Of a stretch of 64,000 nt of DNA, positions 23,061-63,641 are shown piece after piece. Origin of the DNA: Gemmatimonadota bacterium (lineage in GTDB: Bacteria; Gemmatimonadota; Gemmatimonadetes; Gemmatimonadales; GWC2-71-9). The stretch spans positions 1,068,314 through 1,132,313 of the forward strand of contig PNAE01000007.1 of the NCBI GenBank assembly GCA_003169895.1, in the 5' to 3' direction. Position numbers and translations under genes: made by a program. How positions within the stretch are numbered: the stretch's first letter is position 1; every line of letters begins with the position of its first letter. The notes below the pieces were generated by a model. The model searched no databases. It was given only the letters and a program-made list of their open reading frames with translations, and was not told where the DNA came from.

Positions 23061-23112
23061 AGCTAGGAGCTAAGGAGAGACGAGAGAAGAGAGACGTCTC
23101 TCGTCTCTCCTT
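23061..23112. repeat. Heptamer-register inverted repeat (mixed AGCTAAG/GAGAGAC words)
   Basis: AGCTAGG AGCTAAG GAGAGAC GAGAGAA GAGAGAC GTCTCTC GTCTCTC; perfect 16-bp stem 23072-23087 / 23097-23112. Confidence 0.85.
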
Positions 23113-24430
23113 ACATCTTCGGCAGCGGATATCGCTCCAACCATTCCGCTTCGCCATCGAGGCGGGCCAAATAGACACCGTTCTTGCCGAAGCCGACCAG
23201 CCTGGTGTTCGCGGGCAGCTTGACGTGTCCGACGATGCCCTTGCCCTCGGCGATCACGTCATATTTCGGCGCATTGTCGCCGCGCATTCGTTCACGGGCA
23301 ACCCAGAGGCTGCCATTCGGATCGAATGCCGCGACCAGGCCGCTCGACGCGATCGCGGGCTTGGTCGCGGGAAACGGCGCGATCGGAATGTCGGACGGAT
23401 TGAAGGTGAACGACTGCCCGCTTGCGCCCGCGGCCTGTCCTGCGGCACGGCCCGCTTCCACCGCGGCGCGATCTGCACCGGCCGGCGGGGCACCACCACC
23501 GTCACCGCCGCGCATGACGAACACCTGCGTGCCGCCCCCACCGCCACCGTCACCAAACATGATTGTCTGCCCACCACCGCCGTCACCGATCGTCCGATTC
23601 GCCGGGGCCGCCATGCCAACCGAGCTCACCATGTTCTTCATGCCCTGGCGCATCGAATCGGTGATCGCCTGCTGCTCGGCCGCCGAGATGGCGATCGGCT
23701 GGAACGGCAACGGGCCGGTCCGTCCGGTTTCGTGTCCATCGCGTGACCAAATGACCTGGTAACTGTCAGCCAGCACGCGTGCAATGAGACCGTCGTTGCG
23801 GACCGCCCAGGCGTCGCGAAACGGGAAGACCAGGATGCCCTGGGCGTGCGCCTGATCCGCACGCCGGATGTTGATCCGCATGAGTTCCTGATCGGTGGTG
23901 CCGCCCTGGACCAGGCGACGGAGCGATGCGCTCGGCTTCATCGCCTTTGCAGCGGTATCAAACTCGGTGACGGTGTAGTACAGGTTGCCCGACCCGTCCG
24001 TCGCCGACAGTGTGAAGAAACGACTGCCGCTGGGGACCGCCACCGGGATCACTGCTGCGACATCGCCGCTCGGCGTCAGGTGAAGTGCCTTGTGGCCGAG
24101 CGCGTCATATAACAGCAGCGAATCGCCCGGCAGCGGCAGTACCGCGGTGGCAGTCCGATACTCGTCCGGCCCGTCACCCTGCTTGCCGAGCAGCGCGTCA
24201 CCGCCCGTCGCCAGGTCAATCAGGCGGAACGCGGCTTCCTTGGTATCGCTGGCGACGACTCGTCCATCCGGCAGCTCCTGCACGGCAAACACCCGACCCA
24301 GCTGGTACTTCGACCGGGCCACGCGTTTGCCGAGATCAACGGGCGTGGTTCCCTGCGCGGGGGCCGACGACGCGAGCGCGGCGAGCAGGACCGTGGCGGA
24401 CAGCGTCGTTGCCAGACGGGATGGGAGCAT
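23111..24430 (-). CDS. Exported six-bladed beta-propeller-like protein with Gly-rich insert
   Basis: Signal peptide MLPSRLATTLSATVLLAALASSAPAQG; QLGRVFAVQELPDGRVVASDTKEAAFRLIDLATG...KQGDGPDEYR. Confidence 0.75.
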   Translation of the reverse strand: MLPSRLATTLSATVLLAALASSAPAQGTTPVDLGKRVARSKYQLGRVFAVQELPDGRVVASDTKEAAFRLIDLATGGDALLGKQGDGPDEYRTATAVLPLPGDSLLLYDALGHKALHLTPSGDVAAVIPVAVPSGSRFFTLSATDGSGNLYYTVTEFDTAAKAMKPSASLRRLVQGGTTDQELMRINIRRADQAHAQGILVFPFRDAWAVRNDGLIARVLADSYQVIWSRDGHETGRTGPLPFQPIAISAAEQQAITDSMRQGMKNMVSSVGMAAPANRTIGDGGGGQTIMFGDGGGGGGTQVFVMRGGDGGGAPPAGADRAAVEAGRAAGQAAGASGQSFTFNPSDIPIAPFPATKPAIASSGLVAAFDPNGSLWVARERMRGDNAPKYDVIAEGKGIVGHVKLPANTRLVGFGKNGVYLARLDGEAEWLERYPLPKM

Positions 24431-24453: not shown

Positions 24454-24565
24454 GGCTGGTGGCTGTTGGCTCGTGGCTATTGGCTGTTGGCTTGTAGCTC
24501 ATCGTTGGCCGCTGGTCGCTGGCAGCCAATAGGCATTAGCCAACAGCCATGAGCCACTAGCTCCC
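24454..24565. repeat. Heptamer inverted repeat, GGCTNNT class
   Basis: Left arm GGCTGGT GGCTGTT GGCTCGT GGCTATT GGCTGTT GGCTTGT AGCTCAT (24454-24502); right arm AGCCAAT AGGCATT AGCCAAC AGCCATG AGCCACT AGCTCCC (24524-24565). Confidence 0.9.
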
Positions 24566-24726
24566 GGCCAGCCAATTGTAACGATTCCCCGGTGTCACCG
24601 AGGGTCGCGACGGCTTGCTCGCCTCCCGATCGGCCCGTAGCTTCGCAGTCCATGCCCTTTCCGTCCGGACGCCATCCTGAGCCGTGGATGGCCGGATCCG
24701 CCGCGTCCGCCGCGGCGCCCGCGACC

Positions 24727-25518
24727 ATGACTGAACCCAAACCCGCCTCCGCGACCGGAAGCTCGGATGGCCGGGTCGCCGTGGTGACTGGTGGCGCGAC
24801 CGGGCTGGGCCGCACCATCGCCATGGAACTGGGTCGCGGCGGCTGCAAGGTCGCCTTCTGCTGGTTTGAGATGGACGGCCGGGACGTCGAGTCGACTGCG
24901 CTCCTCACCGAGACGACGCTTTCGTCGATGGGCATCGAGGTCTACGCGGCACGTTGCGACGTGCGCGACCGGGAGCAGGTGAATCGGTTCGTCGCGGAGG
25001 TCAAGCGCCGTTTCGGCGCAATACATCACCTGATCAACAACGCTGGCATCGCGCATGATGGCGCGCTGTGGCGCCTGACGCCGGCGGACTGGGATGCAGT
25101 GCTCGACACCAACGTGAGCGGCGCGTTCCATTGTATTGCCGCGTGCTCGCCGCACTTCCGTGAGCAGCATTCGGGCAAGGTCGTCAACGTGTCGGCTCAT
25201 CAGGCGACGCGACCCGGATTCGGCGTATCATCGTACGCTGCGAGCAAGGCGGCGCTGGAGGGTCTGACCCGTGCGGCGGCGGTCGAGCTCGGCCCGAGCA
25301 ACGTCAACGTGAATGCCGTCGCACCGGGATTCATTCGCACCGAGCGACTCGATCGCCTGCCGCGCGACCTGATCGAGCGCACCCGCAAGCGCGCCGTGCT
25401 CGGCCGGCTCGCCGAACCGGAGGATATCGCGCGCGTGATCACCTTTCTCTGTTCGGACGCCGCGCGGCACATCACCGGACAGACGATCGTGGTAGACGGG
25501 GGTCTGTCACTGGAATAG
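24727..25518 (+). CDS. SDR-family oxidoreductase (FabG-like)
   Basis: VAVVTGGATGLGRTIA, NNAGIAHDGALWRL, SSYAASKAALEGLTRAAAVELGPSNVNVNAVAPGFIRT, GQTIVVDGG. Start uncertain (24652 also possible). Confidence 0.92.
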   Translation: MTEPKPASATGSSDGRVAVVTGGATGLGRTIAMELGRGGCKVAFCWFEMDGRDVESTALLTETTLSSMGIEVYAARCDVRDREQVNRFVAEVKRRFGAIHHLINNAGIAHDGALWRLTPADWDAVLDTNVSGAFHCIAACSPHFREQHSGKVVNVSAHQATRPGFGVSSYAASKAALEGLTRAAAVELGPSNVNVNAVAPGFIRTERLDRLPRDLIERTRKRAVLGRLAEPEDIARVITFLCSDAARHITGQTIVVDGGLSLE

Positions 25519-29692: not shown

Positions 29693-30347
29693 GCGCGCGC
29701 AGCTGGAGCTCGGCCTGGTCACGCTCCCCGAGCGCCTGTTTCGCTTGGGCCTGCCACCCGGCACCGCCGTCACCCTCACCCACAACCACACCGTTCTGTT
29801 GAGCTGGCGTACACAGACTGGACTGCGGATGCACGCCGGGTACGCCGCGGCGCCAGACCACGTGCTGCAGGCGATCGTCCGATTCCTCTCGCGTCGCGTG
29901 CCGCGGGTGGAGCGCGCGGCGGCGCGGAAGATCTTCATGGCGTTCCCGGTGGAGCACCATGTCGCGTCACGTCCCAGGGCGGCGCGCCGTGCGAGGCCAG
30001 TCGCGCCGGAGGACCAGGCGCTGATCGAGCGCCTCACCCAGGTGCACGTGGAGTTCAATGCAGGCCACTTTGGCGGCGCGCTGAGCGCCATCGCCATTCA
30101 TCTCTCCGATCGCATGCGCAGACGTCTCGGCGAACTGCATGTGCCCCGTGACGGCGCGCCCGCTGAGATCGTGATTGCCCGGCGCCACATCCGGCGCGAC
30201 CGATGGGCGGCCGTGCTCGACACGCTCCTGCACGAAATGGTGCATCAGTGGCAGGCGGAGACGGGGCGGCCGATCGACCATGGCAAGGAGTTCCGGCGGA
30301 TGGCGAGGCAAGTCGGGGTGTCGCCGAGGGCGGTCGCGGACCTGTGA
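29682..30347 (+). CDS. SprT-like zinc metalloprotease-type protein
   Basis: LHEMVHQWQAETGRPIDHGKEFRRMA (HExxH...HG.EF). Start uncertain (non-ATG). Confidence 0.75.
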   Translation: MADKRAQLELGLVTLPERLFRLGLPPGTAVTLTHNHTVLLSWRTQTGLRMHAGYAAAPDHVLQAIVRFLSRRVPRVERAAARKIFMAFPVEHHVASRPRAARRARPVAPEDQALIERLTQVHVEFNAGHFGGALSAIAIHLSDRMRRRLGELHVPRDGAPAEIVIARRHIRRDRWAAVLDTLLHEMVHQWQAETGRPIDHGKEFRRMARQVGVSPRAVADL

Positions 30348-30447
30348 GGTGAGACGTAAGAGGTGAGACGTAAGAGGTGAGAGGTGAGAGGTAAGAGGGG
30401 TGGATCGTCAGTTCCCTCTCACCTCTCACTTCTTACCTCTTACCTCA
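30345..30447. repeat. Heptamer inverted repeat, GTRAGAS class
   Basis: Left arm GTGAGAC GTAAGAG GTGAGAC GTAAGAG GTGAGAG GTGAGAG GTAAGAG (30349-30397); right arm CTCTCAC CTCTCAC TTCTTAC CTCTTAC CTCA. Confidence 0.92.
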
Positions 30448-30484
30448 GGCTTTATGTTCCCCGCGGCTCCAAGGGAGGTCGGAC

Positions 30485-49409: not shown

Positions 49410-50966
49410 ATGGGCCTCTTCAGCACCAAGAACGTCTCCGACCTGCAGGTTGAAGCCGAGAGTTCGCACAGCCTCAAGCGCGCGCTGACCGCGACCAACC
49501 TCGTGTTCCTCGGCATCGGTGCCATCATCGGCGCCGGCATTTTCGTGCTCACGGGACAGGTGGCGGCGACCAACGCGGGGCCGGCGATCGTGCTGTCGTT
49601 CGTCGTTGCCGGTTCCGGATGTCTCTTCGCCGGCCTCTGCTACGCGGAGTTTGCGTCGATGATCCCGATCGCGGGAAGCGCCTATACCTATGGGTATGCC
49701 ACGATGGGGGAGCTGATCGCGTGGATCATCGGCTGGGACCTGATCCTCGAGTACCTCTTCGCTGCGTCGACCGTGGCGGTCGGCTGGGCCGGCTACTTCA
49801 GCGCGTTCATGACGGAACTCGGCGTCAAGCTCCCGCCGGCATTGATGGGCGCTCCGCTGGATGTGCTAGGCACGCACCACCTGATCCGGGCGCAGATCTG
49901 CGTCGACCCGGCAACTGGTGGCGTGGCATACGACGCCGTCAGCCGCGCCCTGGTGTCGGGGGCGGACTGCGCGGCCAAGGGTTTCACGCTCACCGGCGGC
50001 ATCCTGAACGTCCCGGCGGTGGTGCTGGTGTTGCTGCTCACGACCCTGCTGGTGATCGGCATCAAGGAGTCGGCCCGGTTCAACAACGCCATCGTCATCG
50101 CCAAGGTGGCCATCGTCCTCGCGGTGATTCTCTTCGGCATCAAGTACATCAACACGGCCAACTGGCACCCGTTCATTCCGCCGAACACCGGTGAATTCGG
50201 TCACTTCGGCTTCAGCGGCATCGTGCGCGGTTCGGCAGTGATCTTCTTCGCGTACATCGGTTTCGACGCGGTGTCGACCGCGGCGCAGGAAGCGAAAAAC
50301 CCGCAGCGCGACCTGCCGATCGGCATTCTCGGGTCGCTGGCGGTCTGTACCGTGCTGTACATCGCGATGGCGCTGGTCATGACCGGCATCGCGCATTACA
50401 GCAAGCTCAACGTGCCGCACCCGGTGTTCGTGGCGATCGACGCGGCGGGACCGGGACTCAAGTGGCTGGGCTTCTTCGTCAACATCGGCGCCATCGCCGG
50501 CCTGGCCTCGGTGGTGCTGGTGATGCTGATGGGCCAGCCGCGCATCTTCTACTCGATGTCGCGCGACGGCCTGCTGCCACCGGTGTTCTCCAAGGTGCAC
50601 CCGACGTTCCGCACGCCCTACGTCGCAACCATCATCACCGGTTGCGTCGCGGCGCTGATTGCCGGTTTCTTCCCGATCCGGTTGCTGGGCGAACTGGTGT
50701 CGATCGGGACGCTGCTCGCGTTCGTGATCGTCTGCGGGGGCATCTGGGTCCTTCGGCGCGCCCGGCCCGAACTGCCCCGGCCCTTCCGGACGCCCTGGGT
50801 ACCGGTCGTGCCGATTCTCGGCATCCTGATCTGCGGCTACATGATGTCGACGCTGCCGGGTGATACCTGGATTCGTCTGCTCGTCTGGATGGCGATCGGT
50901 CTCTGCATCTACTTCTTCTACGGCCGGTTCCATTCCAAGCTGGCCGCGGTCGGAAACGTGCGATGA
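49410..50966 (+). CDS. APC-family (cationic amino acid transporter-like) permease
   Basis: LTATNLVFLGIGAIIGAGIFVLTGQVAATNAGPAIVLSF; FFAYIGFDAVSTAAQEAKNPQRDLPIGI. Confidence 0.94.
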   Translation: MGLFSTKNVSDLQVEAESSHSLKRALTATNLVFLGIGAIIGAGIFVLTGQVAATNAGPAIVLSFVVAGSGCLFAGLCYAEFASMIPIAGSAYTYGYATMGELIAWIIGWDLILEYLFAASTVAVGWAGYFSAFMTELGVKLPPALMGAPLDVLGTHHLIRAQICVDPATGGVAYDAVSRALVSGADCAAKGFTLTGGILNVPAVVLVLLLTTLLVIGIKESARFNNAIVIAKVAIVLAVILFGIKYINTANWHPFIPPNTGEFGHFGFSGIVRGSAVIFFAYIGFDAVSTAAQEAKNPQRDLPIGILGSLAVCTVLYIAMALVMTGIAHYSKLNVPHPVFVAIDAAGPGLKWLGFFVNIGAIAGLASVVLVMLMGQPRIFYSMSRDGLLPPVFSKVHPTFRTPYVATIITGCVAALIAGFFPIRLLGELVSIGTLLAFVIVCGGIWVLRRARPELPRPFRTPWVPVVPILGILICGYMMSTLPGDTWIRLLVWMAIGLCIYFFYGRFHSKLAAVGNVR

Positions 50967-52459
50967 ACCTGTGGGCGACCAAGTCCATCGGTGCGCTTCG
51001 CGCCGAGGCGGAGGCCACCGGCGAACACTCGCTGCGGCGTTCGCTCGGTGCGCTCAACCTGACCACGCTCGGCATCGGCGCGATCATTGGGGCCGGCATC
51101 TTCGTGCTCACTGGCCAGGCGGCGGCGCAATTCGCCGGACCGGCGGTGTGGATCTCGATGATCATCGTCGGGATCGCCTGCACCTTCGCCGGGCTCTGCT
51201 ACGCCGAGATGGCCAGCGTCGTGCCGGTGGCGGGGAGCGCGTACACGTATTCGTACGCCACCATGGGTGAGCTGGTCGCCTGGATCATCGGGTGGGACCT
51301 GGTGCTCGAGTATGCGGCCGGCGCCGCGACGGTCGGCGTCGGCTGGTCGGGGCACCTGGTAGACCTGCTCAAGAACTTCGGCATCGTGCTTCCGGCGTCG
51401 CTCACCAATGCGCCGACCGCGTGGTGCACCGCCGACAACGTCACCCAGGCCGTGGCGGCATGTGCGCACTCGGGACTCAACCTCACCGGCGCGTTGCTCA
51501 ACGTGCCGGCGGTGTTCGTGGTCGCCGTCATGTCGACCATTCTGGTGATCGGCATCAAGGAGTCGGCGACGGTGAACAGCTTCATCGTCATCTTCAAGGT
51601 TGCGATCGTGCTATTGATCGTCGCCGTGGGGTTGGCGCACGTGACGCCGGCCAACTGGCATCCGTTGATTCCGAAGAACACCGGCACCTGGGGCAGCTAC
51701 GGCTGGTCCGGCGTGCTGCGCGGCGCCGGTCTGGTCTTCTTTGCGTACATCGGGTTTGACGCCGTGAGCACCGCAGCCCAGGAATCGAAGAATCCCCAGC
51801 GCGACCTGCCGATCGGCATTCTCGGCTCACTGGCCATCTGCACCGTGCTGTACATCGTCGTGTCGGTGGTGTTGACCGGGATGGTGCCATATGCCGAACT
51901 CAATGGCAACGCACCGGTGGCGTATGCGATGGAAAAGGTCGGCGCCCCGGGCTTCATCCGCGTGCTGATCGACATCGGCGCCGTGCTCGGCCTGGCTTCG
52001 GTCATCCTGGTGATGCTGCTCGGGCAATCGCGCGTGTTCTACTCGATGTCGCGCGACGGCCTGCTGGGCCGCTGGGGCGCGCGGGTACATCCCAAATTCC
52101 GTACGCCGTACATCTCGACCATTTTCACCGGCGTCGCGGTCGGACTCGCCACCGGCATCCTGCCGCTGCAGCTGCTGGGACAGCTGGTCAACATCGGCAC
52201 CCTGCTGGCCTTCGTGCTGGTGTGCGCCGGCGTGCTGATCCTGCGCCGGACGCGGCCCGAGCTGGACCGTCCGTTCCGGACCCCGTTCGTGCCGGTCGTG
52301 CCCATCCTCGGCATCGTCTGTTGCCTCGGCTTGATGGCCACGCTGCCGGGCGACACCTGGATCCGCCTCATCGTCTGGCTGATCATCGGCTTGGGCATCT
52401 ACTTCGGGTACGGGCGGCGGCACAGCACGTTGCAGCGGGAGCTGGGAGCTGGGAGGTAG
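50963..52459 (+). CDS. APC-family permease, tandem paralog of the preceding gene
   Basis: LGALNLTTLGIGAIIGAGIFVLTGQAAAQFAGPAVWISM; FFAYIGFDAVSTAAQESKNPQRDLPIGI; ATGA overlap. Confidence 0.94.
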   Translation: MNLWATKSIGALRAEAEATGEHSLRRSLGALNLTTLGIGAIIGAGIFVLTGQAAAQFAGPAVWISMIIVGIACTFAGLCYAEMASVVPVAGSAYTYSYATMGELVAWIIGWDLVLEYAAGAATVGVGWSGHLVDLLKNFGIVLPASLTNAPTAWCTADNVTQAVAACAHSGLNLTGALLNVPAVFVVAVMSTILVIGIKESATVNSFIVIFKVAIVLLIVAVGLAHVTPANWHPLIPKNTGTWGSYGWSGVLRGAGLVFFAYIGFDAVSTAAQESKNPQRDLPIGILGSLAICTVLYIVVSVVLTGMVPYAELNGNAPVAYAMEKVGAPGFIRVLIDIGAVLGLASVILVMLLGQSRVFYSMSRDGLLGRWGARVHPKFRTPYISTIFTGVAVGLATGILPLQLLGQLVNIGTLLAFVLVCAGVLILRRTRPELDRPFRTPFVPVVPILGIVCCLGLMATLPGDTWIRLIVWLIIGLGIYFGYGRRHSTLQRELGAGR

Positions 52460-55377: not shown

Positions 55378-56319
55378 GTGACCGCCACAGGAATCGCGTT
55401 GATCGCCCGGGTCGGCTGGCTCGTGGCAACTGCATCTTGTCTGATGGGCGGGTTGCGACTGGCGTCAGTGCAGGCGCAATCGTCGCCGGTCGAGACGGCG
55501 ATGCGGCACGTCGACTTTCACGTCGATTCCACCCTCGTCATGCACATCGAATACCTGCGTGGCCGGTTGATCGAGCGGCATCCCGGGCAACCGCCCTGGT
55601 TCGACGATCCACGTTCCTTCGATATCGAGATGGATACGGCCAGCATCACGCTGAGTACCACCGCGCTCGCCGACCTGCTCAACCGATACGTCTTCAACTA
55701 CCGCGGTTCACCGCTACGCGCGATCAAGGTGCAGGTGGACCACGGCAGGCTCAAGCAGAGCGGTCGCCTGCATGGCTTGCCGTTCAGTATCATCACCGAC
55801 GCGACGGTGACACCGGGCGGCGAGTTGCGCCTGCATCCCACGACGATCCACGCCTTCGGGATCGGGGTGCAGGGTTTGATGCACCTGTTCGGGCTGTCGC
55901 TGCAGAAGCTCGCCGACGTCGGCAAGGCGCCGGGGGTGCGGATCGCCGGGAATGACCTGCTGTTGACGCCCGCCACCATGCTACCGCCACCGACGACCCG
56001 GGGAAAGCTGGTGGCGGTGGCACTGCACGATTCGGCGCTGACATTGACGTTCGGCGGGCACGGTCCCGTGCGCCCGCTCGTGGTGCCGGACGCGCGCGCG
56101 GTCAACTACATGTACTATCGCGGCGGGACGATCCGGTTCTGGACCCTCACCATGACGCCGGCGGACCTGCTGGTCGTCGATCACGACCCGCGCGATCCGT
56201 TCGACTTCTGGCTGGCACGCTACCGGGCGCAACTGGTCGCAGGCACGTCAAGGAACGCGGCGACGGGAGGGCTGATTACGGAGTGGCCGGATTACAAGAA
56301 GGCGGGAGGCAAGAGGTAA
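55378..56319 (+). CDS. Hypothetical exported protein (possibly LmeA/DUF2993-like)
   Basis: Signal-like N-terminus; LADLLNRYVFNYRGSPLRAIKVQVDHGRLKQSGRL. Stop codon lies in a heptamer repeat. Confidence 0.55.
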   Translation: MTATGIALIARVGWLVATASCLMGGLRLASVQAQSSPVETAMRHVDFHVDSTLVMHIEYLRGRLIERHPGQPPWFDDPRSFDIEMDTASITLSTTALADLLNRYVFNYRGSPLRAIKVQVDHGRLKQSGRLHGLPFSIITDATVTPGGELRLHPTTIHAFGIGVQGLMHLFGLSLQKLADVGKAPGVRIAGNDLLLTPATMLPPPTTRGKLVAVALHDSALTLTFGGHGPVRPLVVPDARAVNYMYYRGGTIRFWTLTMTPADLLVVDHDPRDPFDFWLARYRAQLVAGTSRNAATGGLITEWPDYKKAGGKR

Positions 56320-56431
56320 GAGGTAAGAGGTAAGACGTAAGACGTAAGACGTAAAAGAGAAAAGGGAAAAGGGAACTCCCATTGTACGGAGGCCCCCTTT
56401 CACGTTTCACCTCTCACTCTTCACCTCTCAC
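56309..56431. repeat. Heptamer inverted repeat between convergent genes, GTRAGAS class
   Basis: Left GCAAGAG GTAAGAG GTAAGAG GTAAGAC GTAAGAC GTAAGAC GTAAAAG (56309-56357); right CTTTCAC GTTTCAC CTCTCAC TCTTCAC CTCTCAC (56397-56431). Confidence 0.92.
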
Positions 56432-57291
56432 CGCTGTTCAATCCACTCCACCTCGATCGCCACCATTGACGCCTTCAGCTCGACACTCAACTTGTGCGCC
56501 GCGAGGTCATATCCGGGCGTGATCCAGGCATCTCCGGATTTCACGAAGCCCTTGCTGTCGAACGGTGCCAGGAATCGTTGGCCCGTGAGCCGTACGCTGG
56601 TGCCGCGCGGCAGCTGCAGCCGGAGTCCTCCGACGGCCAAGTCGACGACCAGGGTCAGGTCGCGACGCCACGCGCCCTGGAAGCCGAGCGTGGTGCGACC
56701 TGCGCCCCCATCCACCCGGAGCGCGGAGCAGCCGGCCTGCGCCAGGTGCTGGACATCGAGCTGCGATGCGCCGATGGTGAACGTGGCCGCCTTGCACGTG
56801 CCGCGGGTTGGGCGCGAGAAATCAACCGTGGCGTGTGTCGCCCCGATCCGAAGCTCGAGCTCGGTGAGCGTGGTACCACCGAGGTCCATCGTTGCATCGC
56901 TGGCACCGAGCGAGGCGTCAACGGCCAATGGCACGTCGGCTGCAAGCTCGAACTGCGCGGTCTGTTCCAGTTGCGCGCGTGATGTGACGCGCACGCCCAT
57001 CCCGCCAACCGACTCGACGCCCAGGTGCAGTATCCCGGTGCGCTGGTCATACTGCTGCACCGGAGCATACCGGGTGGCGTCGTAGCGGAGCCTCATCCCA
57101 TACAACATTCCGGCCGGAGCGGGCATCAGGATGAGGCTGCCGCCGCTGAAATCGAGGGTGACGTGCAGGAAGCGTTCGGACGCCACCGGTCGTGACACCG
57201 AGAGCGTCCGCATGCTCTGCCCCCAGCACCGCGATGGGCTGCCGGCGCCGTGGACTCCGAGCAGCACGCCGAGCGCGATCAGGCGTCGCAC
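56428..57291 (-). CDS. Hypothetical exported protein, adhesin-like beta-helix ('toastrack') type
   Basis: GTG start overlapping the upstream TAG; signal peptide VRRLIALGVLLGVHGAG; repetitive beta-strand pattern. Confidence 0.6.
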   Translation of the reverse strand: MRRLIALGVLLGVHGAGSPSRCWGQSMRTLSVSRPVASERFLHVTLDFSGGSLILMPAPAGMLYGMRLRYDATRYAPVQQYDQRTGILHLGVESVGGMGVRVTSRAQLEQTAQFELAADVPLAVDASLGASDATMDLGGTTLTELELRIGATHATVDFSRPTRGTCKAATFTIGASQLDVQHLAQAGCSALRVDGGAGRTTLGFQGAWRRDLTLVVDLAVGGLRLQLPRGTSVRLTGQRFLAPFDSKGFVKSGDAWITPGYDLAAHKLSVELKASMVAIEVEWIEQR

Positions 57292-59097: not shown

Positions 59098-59140
59098 GCT
59101 GGGGCCTCCTACGTCAGATTATGGTACAGGTTTCAGGCAA

Positions 59141-59335
59141 GACGAGAGACAAGAGACGTGAGACGTGAGACGTGAGACGTGAGACGTGACCGTCGCCGTC
59201 ATCCCGAGCGAAGCGAGGGATCGCTTCGTCGCGGGCCGATCCCTCAGTCCCTGCGGTCCTTCGGGATGGCTCCGCCGGCTGGCCCTTCTCGTCTCTCTTC
59301 TCCCGTCTCTCGTCTCTCGTCTCTCGTCTCTCGTC
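59141..59335. repeat. Heptamer inverted repeat (GACGTGA/GACGAGA) carrying a REP-like palindrome at its apex
   Basis: Left GACGAGA GACAAGA (GACGTGA)x5 59141-59189; right TCTCGTC TCTCTTC TCCCGTC (TCTCGTC)x4 59287-59335; centre CATCCCGA...TCGGGATG. Confidence 0.92.
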
Positions 59336-59342
59336 GTTGCCG

Positions 59343-59948
59343 TCATCGCGTATCCGCCAGCAAGATCCGCAGCTCGTTTCTCGCCCGGTGGATGTAGGTC
59401 TTCACCGTGCCGAGCGGCAGGCCGAGAATTTCCGCGATCTCCTCGTATGGCCTGCCGTCGATGTGCCGCAGGATGATGCAGCTGCGATACTCCGGGCGGA
59501 GCTTGCCGATCGCCGACTCGATCTGCGAGCCCAGTTCGCGACTGGTGACTTCCTCGAGTTGGGACTCGCGGGCGTCGCCGATCTGGAGCGTCGTGGCTTC
59601 GATCGCTTCGGCGCTCTCGGCGTGCGGCGATCCATCCAGCGAGAGTGTATCGAGCGACCGGCGGCGCAGTTGATCGATGGCGGCGTTGTTGGCGATCTTG
59701 AAGATCCAGCTCGAAAACTTGTACTCGGGCCGATAATTCTCGATGGCGTTGAGCACCTTGATGAACGTTTCCTGCGCGAGGTCCTCCGCCAGTTCGCGGT
59801 CGCGGACCATGCGGTAGAGCAGCGAGAAGACCGGCCGCTGGTAGCGGCGAATCAGCTCGCGATAGGCGGCCTCGCGCCCGCGCGCGGCGTGGCGGACCAC
59901 TTCCTGGTCCGACAACGCGGCCCATTCCACGGGCGTCGGGTTTGTCAT
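59343..59948 (-). CDS. ECF-type RNA polymerase sigma factor
   Basis: LIRRYQRPVFSLLYRMVRDRELAEDLAQETFIKVLNAIENYRPEYKFSSWIFKIANN...PYEEIAEILGLPLGTVKTYIHRARNELR. Confidence 0.96.
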   Translation of the reverse strand: MTNPTPVEWAALSDQEVVRHAARGREAAYRELIRRYQRPVFSLLYRMVRDRELAEDLAQETFIKVLNAIENYRPEYKFSSWIFKIANNAAIDQLRRRSLDTLSLDGSPHAESAEAIEATTLQIGDARESQLEEVTSRELGSQIESAIGKLRPEYRSCIILRHIDGRPYEEIAEILGLPLGTVKTYIHRARNELRILLADTR

Positions 59949-60752: not shown

Positions 60753-62242
60753 GTCTCGACTCGCTGCCCGAGTTCATTGCGGCAATCGAGCGCATCGGAG
60801 AGCTGGTGCGGATTCGAGAGCCGGTGCGCACCCATCTCGAGATCGCGGCCATCGCGGATCGGGTCATGAAATCGCCCGGCGGCGGTCCCGCGCTGGTCTT
60901 TGAGCATCCAGTGCTCGCCGACGGCACGGCCAGCCCTATTCCGGTCGCCATCAATCTGTTCGGTTCGCAGCGCCGGATCAGCCTCGCGCTGGGCGTCGAA
61001 CGCCTGGATGACATTGGCGACCGGATCGCGGAAATGCTGAACCTCAAGGTACCGGAAGGCCTGCTGGCCAAGCTTGCGATGCTGCCGAGACTCGCCGAGC
61101 TCGCGAAGTTCCCGCCGCGAACGCGCTCCGGGCGGCCGCCCTGCCAGGCGGTGGTCTGGCGTGGCGACGAGATCGACCTCGATCGGCTGCCGCTCCTGCA
61201 GACCTGGCCCAAGGATGGCGGCCGTTACATCACGCTCCCGATGGTGATTACCCGCGATCCGGTCGGCGGGGCGCGCAACGTCGGCATGTACCGCGTCCAG
61301 TTGCTCGGCCGGCGGGAGCTCGCGATGCATTGGCAACGCCACAAGTCCGGCGCGGCCCACTGGCGCGAAATGGCCGCGCGCGGAGAGAAGATGCCGGTGG
61401 TGATCGCGATTGGCGGCGATCCCGCCAGCATCTACGCTGGATCGGCTCCGCTTCCCCCCGGCATCGATGAGTTCCTCTTCGCCGGCTTCATCCGTCGCGA
61501 TCACGTCGAGCTGGCCCGGGCCGTAACCTGTGACCTCGACGTCCCCGCCGAAGCCGAGATCGTGATCGAAGGCTACATCGACCCCGCCGAGCCACTGGTG
61601 ATGGAAGGACCGTTCGGCGATCACACCGGTTTCTACTCGCTCGCCGATCGATACCCGCTTGTGCACGTCACGGCCGTGACGATGAAGGAGCGGCCGGTGT
61701 ATGCCGCGACACTGGTCGGACGCCCTCCGATGGAGGATTACTGGCTCGGTCACGCCACCGAACGCATCTTCCTGCCGCTGCTCAAGCTCACCGTGCCGGA
61801 AATCGTCGATTACCACATGCCGGCGGCGGGGATATTCCACAACCTGGTGTTCGTCAGCATCGACAAGCAGTATCCCGGCCAGGCTTACAAGGTGATGCAC
61901 GCCCTCTGGGGCCAGGGGCTGATGTCCCTCGCGAAGGTCCTGGTGATCGTCGACAAGGACGTCAACGTGCATGACGCCGATGAGGTATGGTGGGTCGCGC
62001 TCAATCACATCGATCCCAAGCGCGACGTCGAATTCGTGCGCGGGCCGGTCGACGTACTGGATCATGCGTCGCAGCACTTCACCTTCGGCAGCAAGATGGG
62101 GATCGACGGCACGCGGAAGTGGCCCGAGGAGGGATTCACGCGCGAGTGGCCGGAGCGGATGGAGATGGATGAGGAAACCACGCGGCGGGTGGATGAACTG
62201 TGGCCGAGGCTGGGGATCAAAGACGTGAGACGTGAAACGTGA
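60749..62242 (+). CDS. UbiD-family decarboxylase
   Basis: NLFGSQRRISLALGV, VWRGDEIDLDRLPLLQTWPKDGGRYITLPMVITRDP, VMEGPFGDHTGFYS; ATGA overlap with menG. Confidence 0.95.
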   Translation: MSLDSLPEFIAAIERIGELVRIREPVRTHLEIAAIADRVMKSPGGGPALVFEHPVLADGTASPIPVAINLFGSQRRISLALGVERLDDIGDRIAEMLNLKVPEGLLAKLAMLPRLAELAKFPPRTRSGRPPCQAVVWRGDEIDLDRLPLLQTWPKDGGRYITLPMVITRDPVGGARNVGMYRVQLLGRRELAMHWQRHKSGAAHWREMAARGEKMPVVIAIGGDPASIYAGSAPLPPGIDEFLFAGFIRRDHVELARAVTCDLDVPAEAEIVIEGYIDPAEPLVMEGPFGDHTGFYSLADRYPLVHVTAVTMKERPVYAATLVGRPPMEDYWLGHATERIFLPLLKLTVPEIVDYHMPAAGIFHNLVFVSIDKQYPGQAYKVMHALWGQGLMSLAKVLVIVDKDVNVHDADEVWWVALNHIDPKRDVEFVRGPVDVLDHASQHFTFGSKMGIDGTRKWPEEGFTREWPERMEMDEETTRRVDELWPRLGIKDVRRET

Positions 62243-63222: not shown

Positions 63223-63225
63223 CAG

Positions 63226-63641
63226 CCCCTCACACTGTTGTCACCCGGAGTGCAGGCCCTCACACGCTTGTCACCCTGAGCCGCAGGCCCTCACCCTCTT
63301 GTCACCCTGAGCGCAGCGAAGGGGCGGAGCCTGCCGTCGCACCCGTGTCACCCTGAGCGCAGGCCCTCACACGCTTGTCACCCTGAGCGAAGGCCCTCAC
63401 ACTCTTGTCACCCTGAGCGAAGCGAAGGGGCGGAGCCTGCCGTCGCACCCGTGTCATCCTGAGCCGCAGGCCCTCACACGCTTGTCACGCTGAGCGCAGC
63501 GAAGCGGCGGAGTGACGACTTAGTACCAAGTTCCGCCCCTTCGCCTGCGGCTCAGGGTGACAAGGGCGCTACTCCGCCCCTTCGCTGCGCTCAGGGTGAC
63601 AAGGGTGTCACTCCGCCCCTTCGCTGCGCTCAGGGTGACAA
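63226..63641. repeat. Clustered REP-like CCTGAGCG(A/C)AGCGAAGG elements
   Basis: About eight + strand copies of GTCACCCTGAGC.. followed by three inverted copies (..GCTCAGGGTGAC), spacing irregular. Confidence 0.92.

Follow-up and report, generated by a model that had tools for sequence, protein, structure and literature searches.

An intergenic palindrome of inverted heptanucleotide arrays belongs to a numerous class of mirrored repeats in a Gemmatimonadota genome

Intergenic heptameric repeats have been described in Xanthomonas (GGGNATC) and Nostoc (GGGGA(C/T)T) (Rehm et al. 2015, PMC4692102). The Xanthomonas arrays are found on the coding strand, no farther than 50 bp from stop codons, and are scarce between divergent genes; 70 to 75 cases are convergently paired, with one array on each strand, and the arrays vary in length between close species, are transcribed, and have been read as G-quadruplexes (PMC4692102). 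TAACTGA heptamers are repeated in the genomes of Maribeggiatoa and its relatives (PMC4679880), short tandemly repeated repetitive (STRR) sequences of cyanobacteria are a known kind of heptanucleotide tandem repeat, and a 2002 study, as cited in PMC3488679, describes heptanucleotide repeats that base pair in RNA within the P6b hairpin of the Nostoc tRNA-Leu intron and that come in classes. The excess of heptamers has been explained by slippage (Mrazek, as quoted in PMC4692102 and PMC4679880). Heptamer overrepresentation in bacteria is an old question, which has so far been approached through single words (GGGNATC, TAACTGA, and STRR). Here, we describe an element at positions 24454 to 24565 of a 64,000-nucleotide (nt) stretch of DNA (the window) from a Gemmatimonadota bacterium (assembly GCA_003169895.1, contig PNAE01000007.1, positions 1,068,314 to 1,132,313; genome G000 below). 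It is an imperfect palindrome, located between genes, in which two heptanucleotide tandem arrays face each other in inverted orientation, and it is one of a numerous and fast-turning class in its genus. A lineage in which one genome has several unrelated words, most of them mirrored in the same polarity, makes it possible to separate what is conserved (the 7-nt step, the inversion, and the purine-first order of the arms) from what is not (the sequence and the potential to form G-quadruplexes).

Direct reading gave the units of both arms exactly as an initial annotation of the window had quoted them, seven on the left and six on the right (Table 1). The 21 nt between the arms stay in the same 7-nt register, so that the whole element measures 16 × 7 = 112 nt. 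All eight matches to GGCTNNT×3 (at most one mismatch) in the window fell within the element, against an expectation of 0.00 from 100 dinucleotide shuffles, and its longest GGCTNNT run was six units, compared with one to two in codon-block-shuffled windows; on these counts, we reject a chance origin of the element. The RNA of positions 24454 to 24565 folds into an imperfect stem of 42 bp, 7 of which are G·U pairs. The plus-strand fold (−82.3 kcal/mol, z = −6.49) was equaled or bettered by none of the shuffles, and the minus-strand fold (−66.8, z = −5.5) was likewise better than all of them. The window held no Rfam match at the gathering score, and a plasmid search returned no match.

Across the 3.42-Mb genome, we counted 54 GGCTNNT×3 matches (at most one mismatch), compared with none for the reversed control pattern, and 10 of the 22 GGCT-type arms examined had an inverted partner within 150 bp (P < 0.02), with several more being borderline. 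The focal array is therefore neither unique in its genome nor unpaired elsewhere, which is what the initial annotation had named as telling against its claims. At 10 arms in 22, however, its expectation that GGCTNNT arrays always come with an inverted arm was not borne out. The longest perfect array of this type, GGCTAGT×7 plus GGCTATG, lacks an inverted partner and is probably a young expansion; it lies 11 bp from a start codon (L064:7572–7627; G000:C8 558571–558626). Moreover, the GGCTCAT subclass pairs leftward, opposite to GGCTATT and GGCTGTT. The proposal that different words share one architecture stands for most arrays but not for all. Arrays of four GGCTNNT units occurred only in G000, G006, and G017.

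Tandem arrays of all periods were sought in three congeneric genomes, covering 864 kb of G000, 547 kb of G004, and 93 kb of G001. Intergenic arrays of period 7 numbered 98 (13 + 20 + 7 in G000, 49 in G004, and 9 in G001), while every other intergenic period that is not a multiple of 7 was represented by zero to two arrays per data set. The words differed widely: GAGAGAC, GTGAGAC, GTAAGAG, and GGCTNNT in G000 (GTRAGAS is also among the words of the class); GATGACR, GGGTGAT, GAGAAGG, and GAGACTA in G004; GAGAGAC in G001; GAGAAGC in G002; GACCAAC and GGTGAGG in G008; GGGGCAT in G009; and GGAATGC in G019. The claim that the period is conserved independently of sequence, first made from the focal array, is strongly supported by these many word classes. 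Like STRRs, the arrays consist of tandem 7-nt units and are intergenic and dispersed. Exact four-unit arrays of the GAGACGA type were found only in G000, G001, G003, G009, and, once, G004 among 41 genomes searched, and there were no arrays in small samples of G007 (39 kb; same genus), G010 (53 kb), G013 (33 kb), G015 (40 kb), G022 (49 kb), and G031 (60 kb). On samples of this size, the trait looks patchy among relatives in the family and order. We reject loss of mismatch repair or of a palindrome nuclease as the cause of this patchiness, since all 25 genomes carry MutS1 and SbcD-like genes. In draft assemblies of relatives, contigs often break off within heptamer arrays (as do C1, C6, and C45 of G001), and fragmented genomes therefore yield array counts that are too low. 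Such ends, common to repeats, are what an assembly artifact could also produce, but many loci lie deep inside a 1.85-Mb contig, the same architecture recurs in independent genomes, and the chance expectation for the focal array is 0; we give chance or artifact practically no credence.

The arrays are mirrored. Neighboring arrays no more than 250 bp apart, chosen by periodicity alone, were inverted relative to each other in 28 of 28 cases, with a purine-rich left array, a pyrimidine-rich right array, and matched words. This purine-first (R..Y) polarity is identical on whichever strand it is read, and over all paired arms, the left one was G rich and purine rich in 74 of 77. Words in the two arms of a locus differed at a mean of 0.5 of 7 positions, compared with 1.85 to 2.53 across loci (0 of 2,000 permutations), a comparison that is partly circular because the loci were picked by pairing; the 28 period-only pairs were not. 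The hairpin at 59134 holds different homogenized variants in its arms, GTGAGAC on the left and GAGAGAC on the right, which indicates that each arm was homogenized separately. In the focal element, the two arrays are convergently oriented with the G-rich strand first, as in Xanthomonas; its left arm pairs rightward and has a GC skew of +0.48 and a purine content of 49%, so that it follows the polarity through its G excess only.

The Xanthomonas repeats are the nearest match to this class, and the likeness is one of layout (paired, G rich first, and near stop codons). Xanthomonas, however, has a single G-quadruplex word, whereas here, each genome has several unrelated words, which are matched between arms, turn over between congeners, and are mostly unable to form G-quadruplexes. 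The focal array itself does not reach four runs of three G's, as GGCTNNT units have runs of only two. The sharing of the layout without the G-quadruplex word speaks against the quadruplex as the feature that unites these repeats. The Nostoc P6b hairpin resembles the present class in having more than one word class and in varying in length by repeat number, but it is one locus inside a group I intron rather than dozens of intergenic loci. The TAACTGA repeats likewise form abundant heptamer arrays in intergenic DNA close to the ends of genes; they differ in being direct, upstream of start codons, built from one word, and essentially without an inverted arm. What is new here is the presence of several unrelated words per genome, which are matched between arms and change from one close species to the next, with the period and the polarity staying as they are. 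Of these features, we consider the polarity rule and the turnover of words to be the ones worth following.

Array presence and absence differ among the congeners compared, whose protein identity is ~85% at most. The focal hairpin is missing from the orthologous divergent gap of G007: the distance from the start codon to the shared GTAACGATTCCCCGG is 40 nt, compared with 147 nt in G000, a difference of ~107 nt, as a unit. Two further hairpin sites of the window, 56295 and 52435, are empty in G001, and partial arrays occupy the site of the 30335–30452 hairpin in G001 and G007. The hairpin at 59134 is common to G000 and G001, with different loops; at 62213, the same flanks enclose heptamers in G000 and a nonhomologous GTCATCCTGAGCG-type palindrome in G001. 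Loops were unique (no second copy in the data compared) in 17 of 26 cases, and the remaining loops often contain sequence that recurs in the data and probably belongs to dispersed repeats.

Sharp presence and absence of dispersed, intergenic, inverted sequences would also be expected of a mobile family resembling repetitive extragenic palindromic (REP) sequences with their REP-associated tyrosine transposases (RAYTs), or miniature inverted-repeat transposable elements (MITEs), with the heptamer arms as terminal inverted repeats; inverted arrays do flank a gene-sized segment at G000:C8 180364–181299 and another downstream of CstA in G002. REP sequences (or palindromic units) and MITEs are, like the present hairpins, dispersed intergenic palindromes often found at 3′ ends. 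The copies described here, however, have no conserved sequence or loop and are not homologous over their length, their loops are mostly unique, and their words differ among loci of one genome. Furthermore, the REP-associated transposase Y1_Tnp is absent from G000 (98% completeness), which thus has no RAYT, and from half of its congeners. We regard a mobile family as very improbable.

We related the hairpins to genes called with a simple codon model. Paired hairpins adjoin stop codons (median distance, ~0); of 25 hairpins in tandem gaps, 23 were nearer the stop codon. Convergent gaps were enriched (20 of 54 hairpins, compared with 88 of the 537 gaps that measure 60 bp or more; odds ratio = 3.6, P value = 1 × 10−4), and divergent gaps tended to be avoided (P value = 0.08). 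The class therefore has the placement of the Xanthomonas repeats; the focal element does not. T was mildly raised to the right of hairpins (fraction of 0.25, compared with 0.185), and A was mildly enriched to the left. These positions, together with the polarity, suit bidirectional transcription terminators or 3′-end stabilizers kept by selection, and an unproven but testable idea is that the purine-first order would leave a weak RNA-DNA hybrid (rY:dR) as the hairpin closes and so promote termination from both directions. There is, however, no clear U-tract: a run of three or more T's within 15 nt to the right was present at only 13 of 54 loci, and none was seen after the focal hairpin at 24566 to 24580. 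A reading of the hairpins as canonical intrinsic terminators is accordingly not supported. Orthologous gaps gain and lose hairpins rapidly, 9 of the 54 hairpins (the focal element included) sit in divergent gaps, and unpaired arrays occupy similar places. That selection keeps the class as terminators or stabilizers is possible but, in our judgment, doubtful.

The arrays might instead be bound at multiple sites by a regulator, or by Rho through a YC step every 7 nt on the pyrimidine arm. Such a step is present in 83 of 84 pyrimidine-arm words, and Rho is encoded, but any C-rich word is expected to contain YC steps, the Rho descriptors in PMC9160355 have YC spacings of 9 to 13 nt, and pairing within the hairpin would make the arm inaccessible. 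Many unrelated words per genome are, moreover, unfit for one sequence-specific protein, and we find this explanation hard to credit.

With moderate confidence, we favor slippage combined with snap-back copying, the resulting RNA hairpin being tolerated or used at transcript ends. Replication slippage, 7 nt at a time, would create and homogenize the arrays, and intramolecular template switching would copy the second arm from the first. Most copies would survive at transcript 3′ ends, where a stem-loop may be harmless or useful, perhaps for termination or for protection of the mRNA 3′ end, readable from both sides. Slippage with snap-back copying would account for the association of word, period, and inversion in spite of freely changing words, for the unique loops, and for the fast turnover; the position at stop codons suggests that transcripts tolerate, or profit from, such a hairpin at their 3′ ends. 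Several observations weigh against this account. Pairing is not universal among arrays, MutS1 and SbcD-like genes occur in genomes both with and without arrays, and the focal element is an atypical copy, in a divergent gap and 23 bp from a start codon rather than at a 3′ end. Neither slippage nor snap-back copying alone explains why the purine-rich arm comes first. It is conceivable, though we think it unlikely, that a cellular process imposes both period 7 and the purine-first inversion, such as a polymerase of replication or repair whose steps or template switches follow a 7-nt register on nascent strands rich in purines; such a process would write palindromes from any local word and so be a sequence-independent generator, not a repeat family. 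The orthologous filled and empty sites provide ground for testing slippage, template switching, and selection at transcript ends.

The focal element lies between two divergent genes (Table 1). The 439-amino-acid (aa) protein has no Pfam family, and the ortholog of its gene adjoins the CstA gene in G007. Given an upstream promoter, the hairpin would be in the putative 5′ leader of this gene, where it may act as a leader hairpin; in a test for occlusion of the ribosome-binding site of this gene, the predicted accessibility of the site was only 0.40 with the hairpin and 0.51 without it. On the other side, ~50 bp from the element, a TTGCTC-17 nt-TAGCTT motif (window 24614–24654) stands 8 nt before the ATG at 24652 and is conserved in G000, G001, and G007. 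This motif, from which we infer the promoter and start of the dehydrogenase gene, probably drives that gene; its spacing suggests a leaderless mRNA without the hairpin and a start at 24652 rather than farther downstream as called.

Table 1. Focal element, adjoining genes, and companion hairpins (window coordinates)
Feature	Position	Strand	Basis
Left arm, seven GGCTNNT-type heptamers (GGCTGGT GGCTGTT GGCTCGT GGCTATT GGCTGTT GGCTTGT AGCTCAT)	24454–24502	+	Direct reading; Tandem Repeats Finder period 7; 0 expected by chance
Apex/loop, three degenerate units in the same 7-nt register (CGTTGGC CGCTGGT CGCTGGC)	24503–24523		Direct reading
Right arm, six AGCCNNN units complementary to the left arm (AGCCAAT AGGCATT AGCCAAC AGCCATG AGCCACT AGCTCCC)	24524–24565	+	Direct reading; fold
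439-aa gene, start codon 23 bp from hairpin	23111–24430	−	Open reading frame and coding model
Short-chain dehydrogenase gene, divergent from 23111–24430	24652–25518	+	Pfam adh_short, E = 3.8e-52 on 24688–25518
Small heptamer palindrome (GGAGAGA CGAGAGA ... TCTCTCGTCTCTCC)	23075–23109		
GTRAGAS-class hairpin, after stop codon of 29829–30347	30335–30452		
Hairpin, GGTAAGA/GTAAGAC words, between convergent genes	56295–56435		
Hairpin, AGACGTG arm/TCTCGTC arm, upstream of extracytoplasmic function (ECF)-type sigma factor gene	59134–59343		
GTGAGAC-class hairpin, after stop codon	62213–62336		

Another palindromic repeat (TGTCACCCTGAGCGAAGC.. / GTCATCCCGAGCGAAGCGAGGGATC) is also dispersed; it is arrayed in tandem at 63223 to 63641 of the window, occupies the loop of a heptamer hairpin at 59196 to 59285, and replaces the heptamer hairpin in the G001 counterpart of 62213. 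The arrays around the G000:C8 segment (L052 and L053) are long, at 129 and 93 bp, and enclose one small gene in the manner of cassette-like terminal repeats; the G002 arrangement, around a short region, is similar. One gene of a paralogous pair (window 49410–52459; G001:C36 about 81490–82960) appears to be inverted relative to its neighbors in G001 and adjoins a heptamer hairpin, and an inversion between inverted arrays is possible there.
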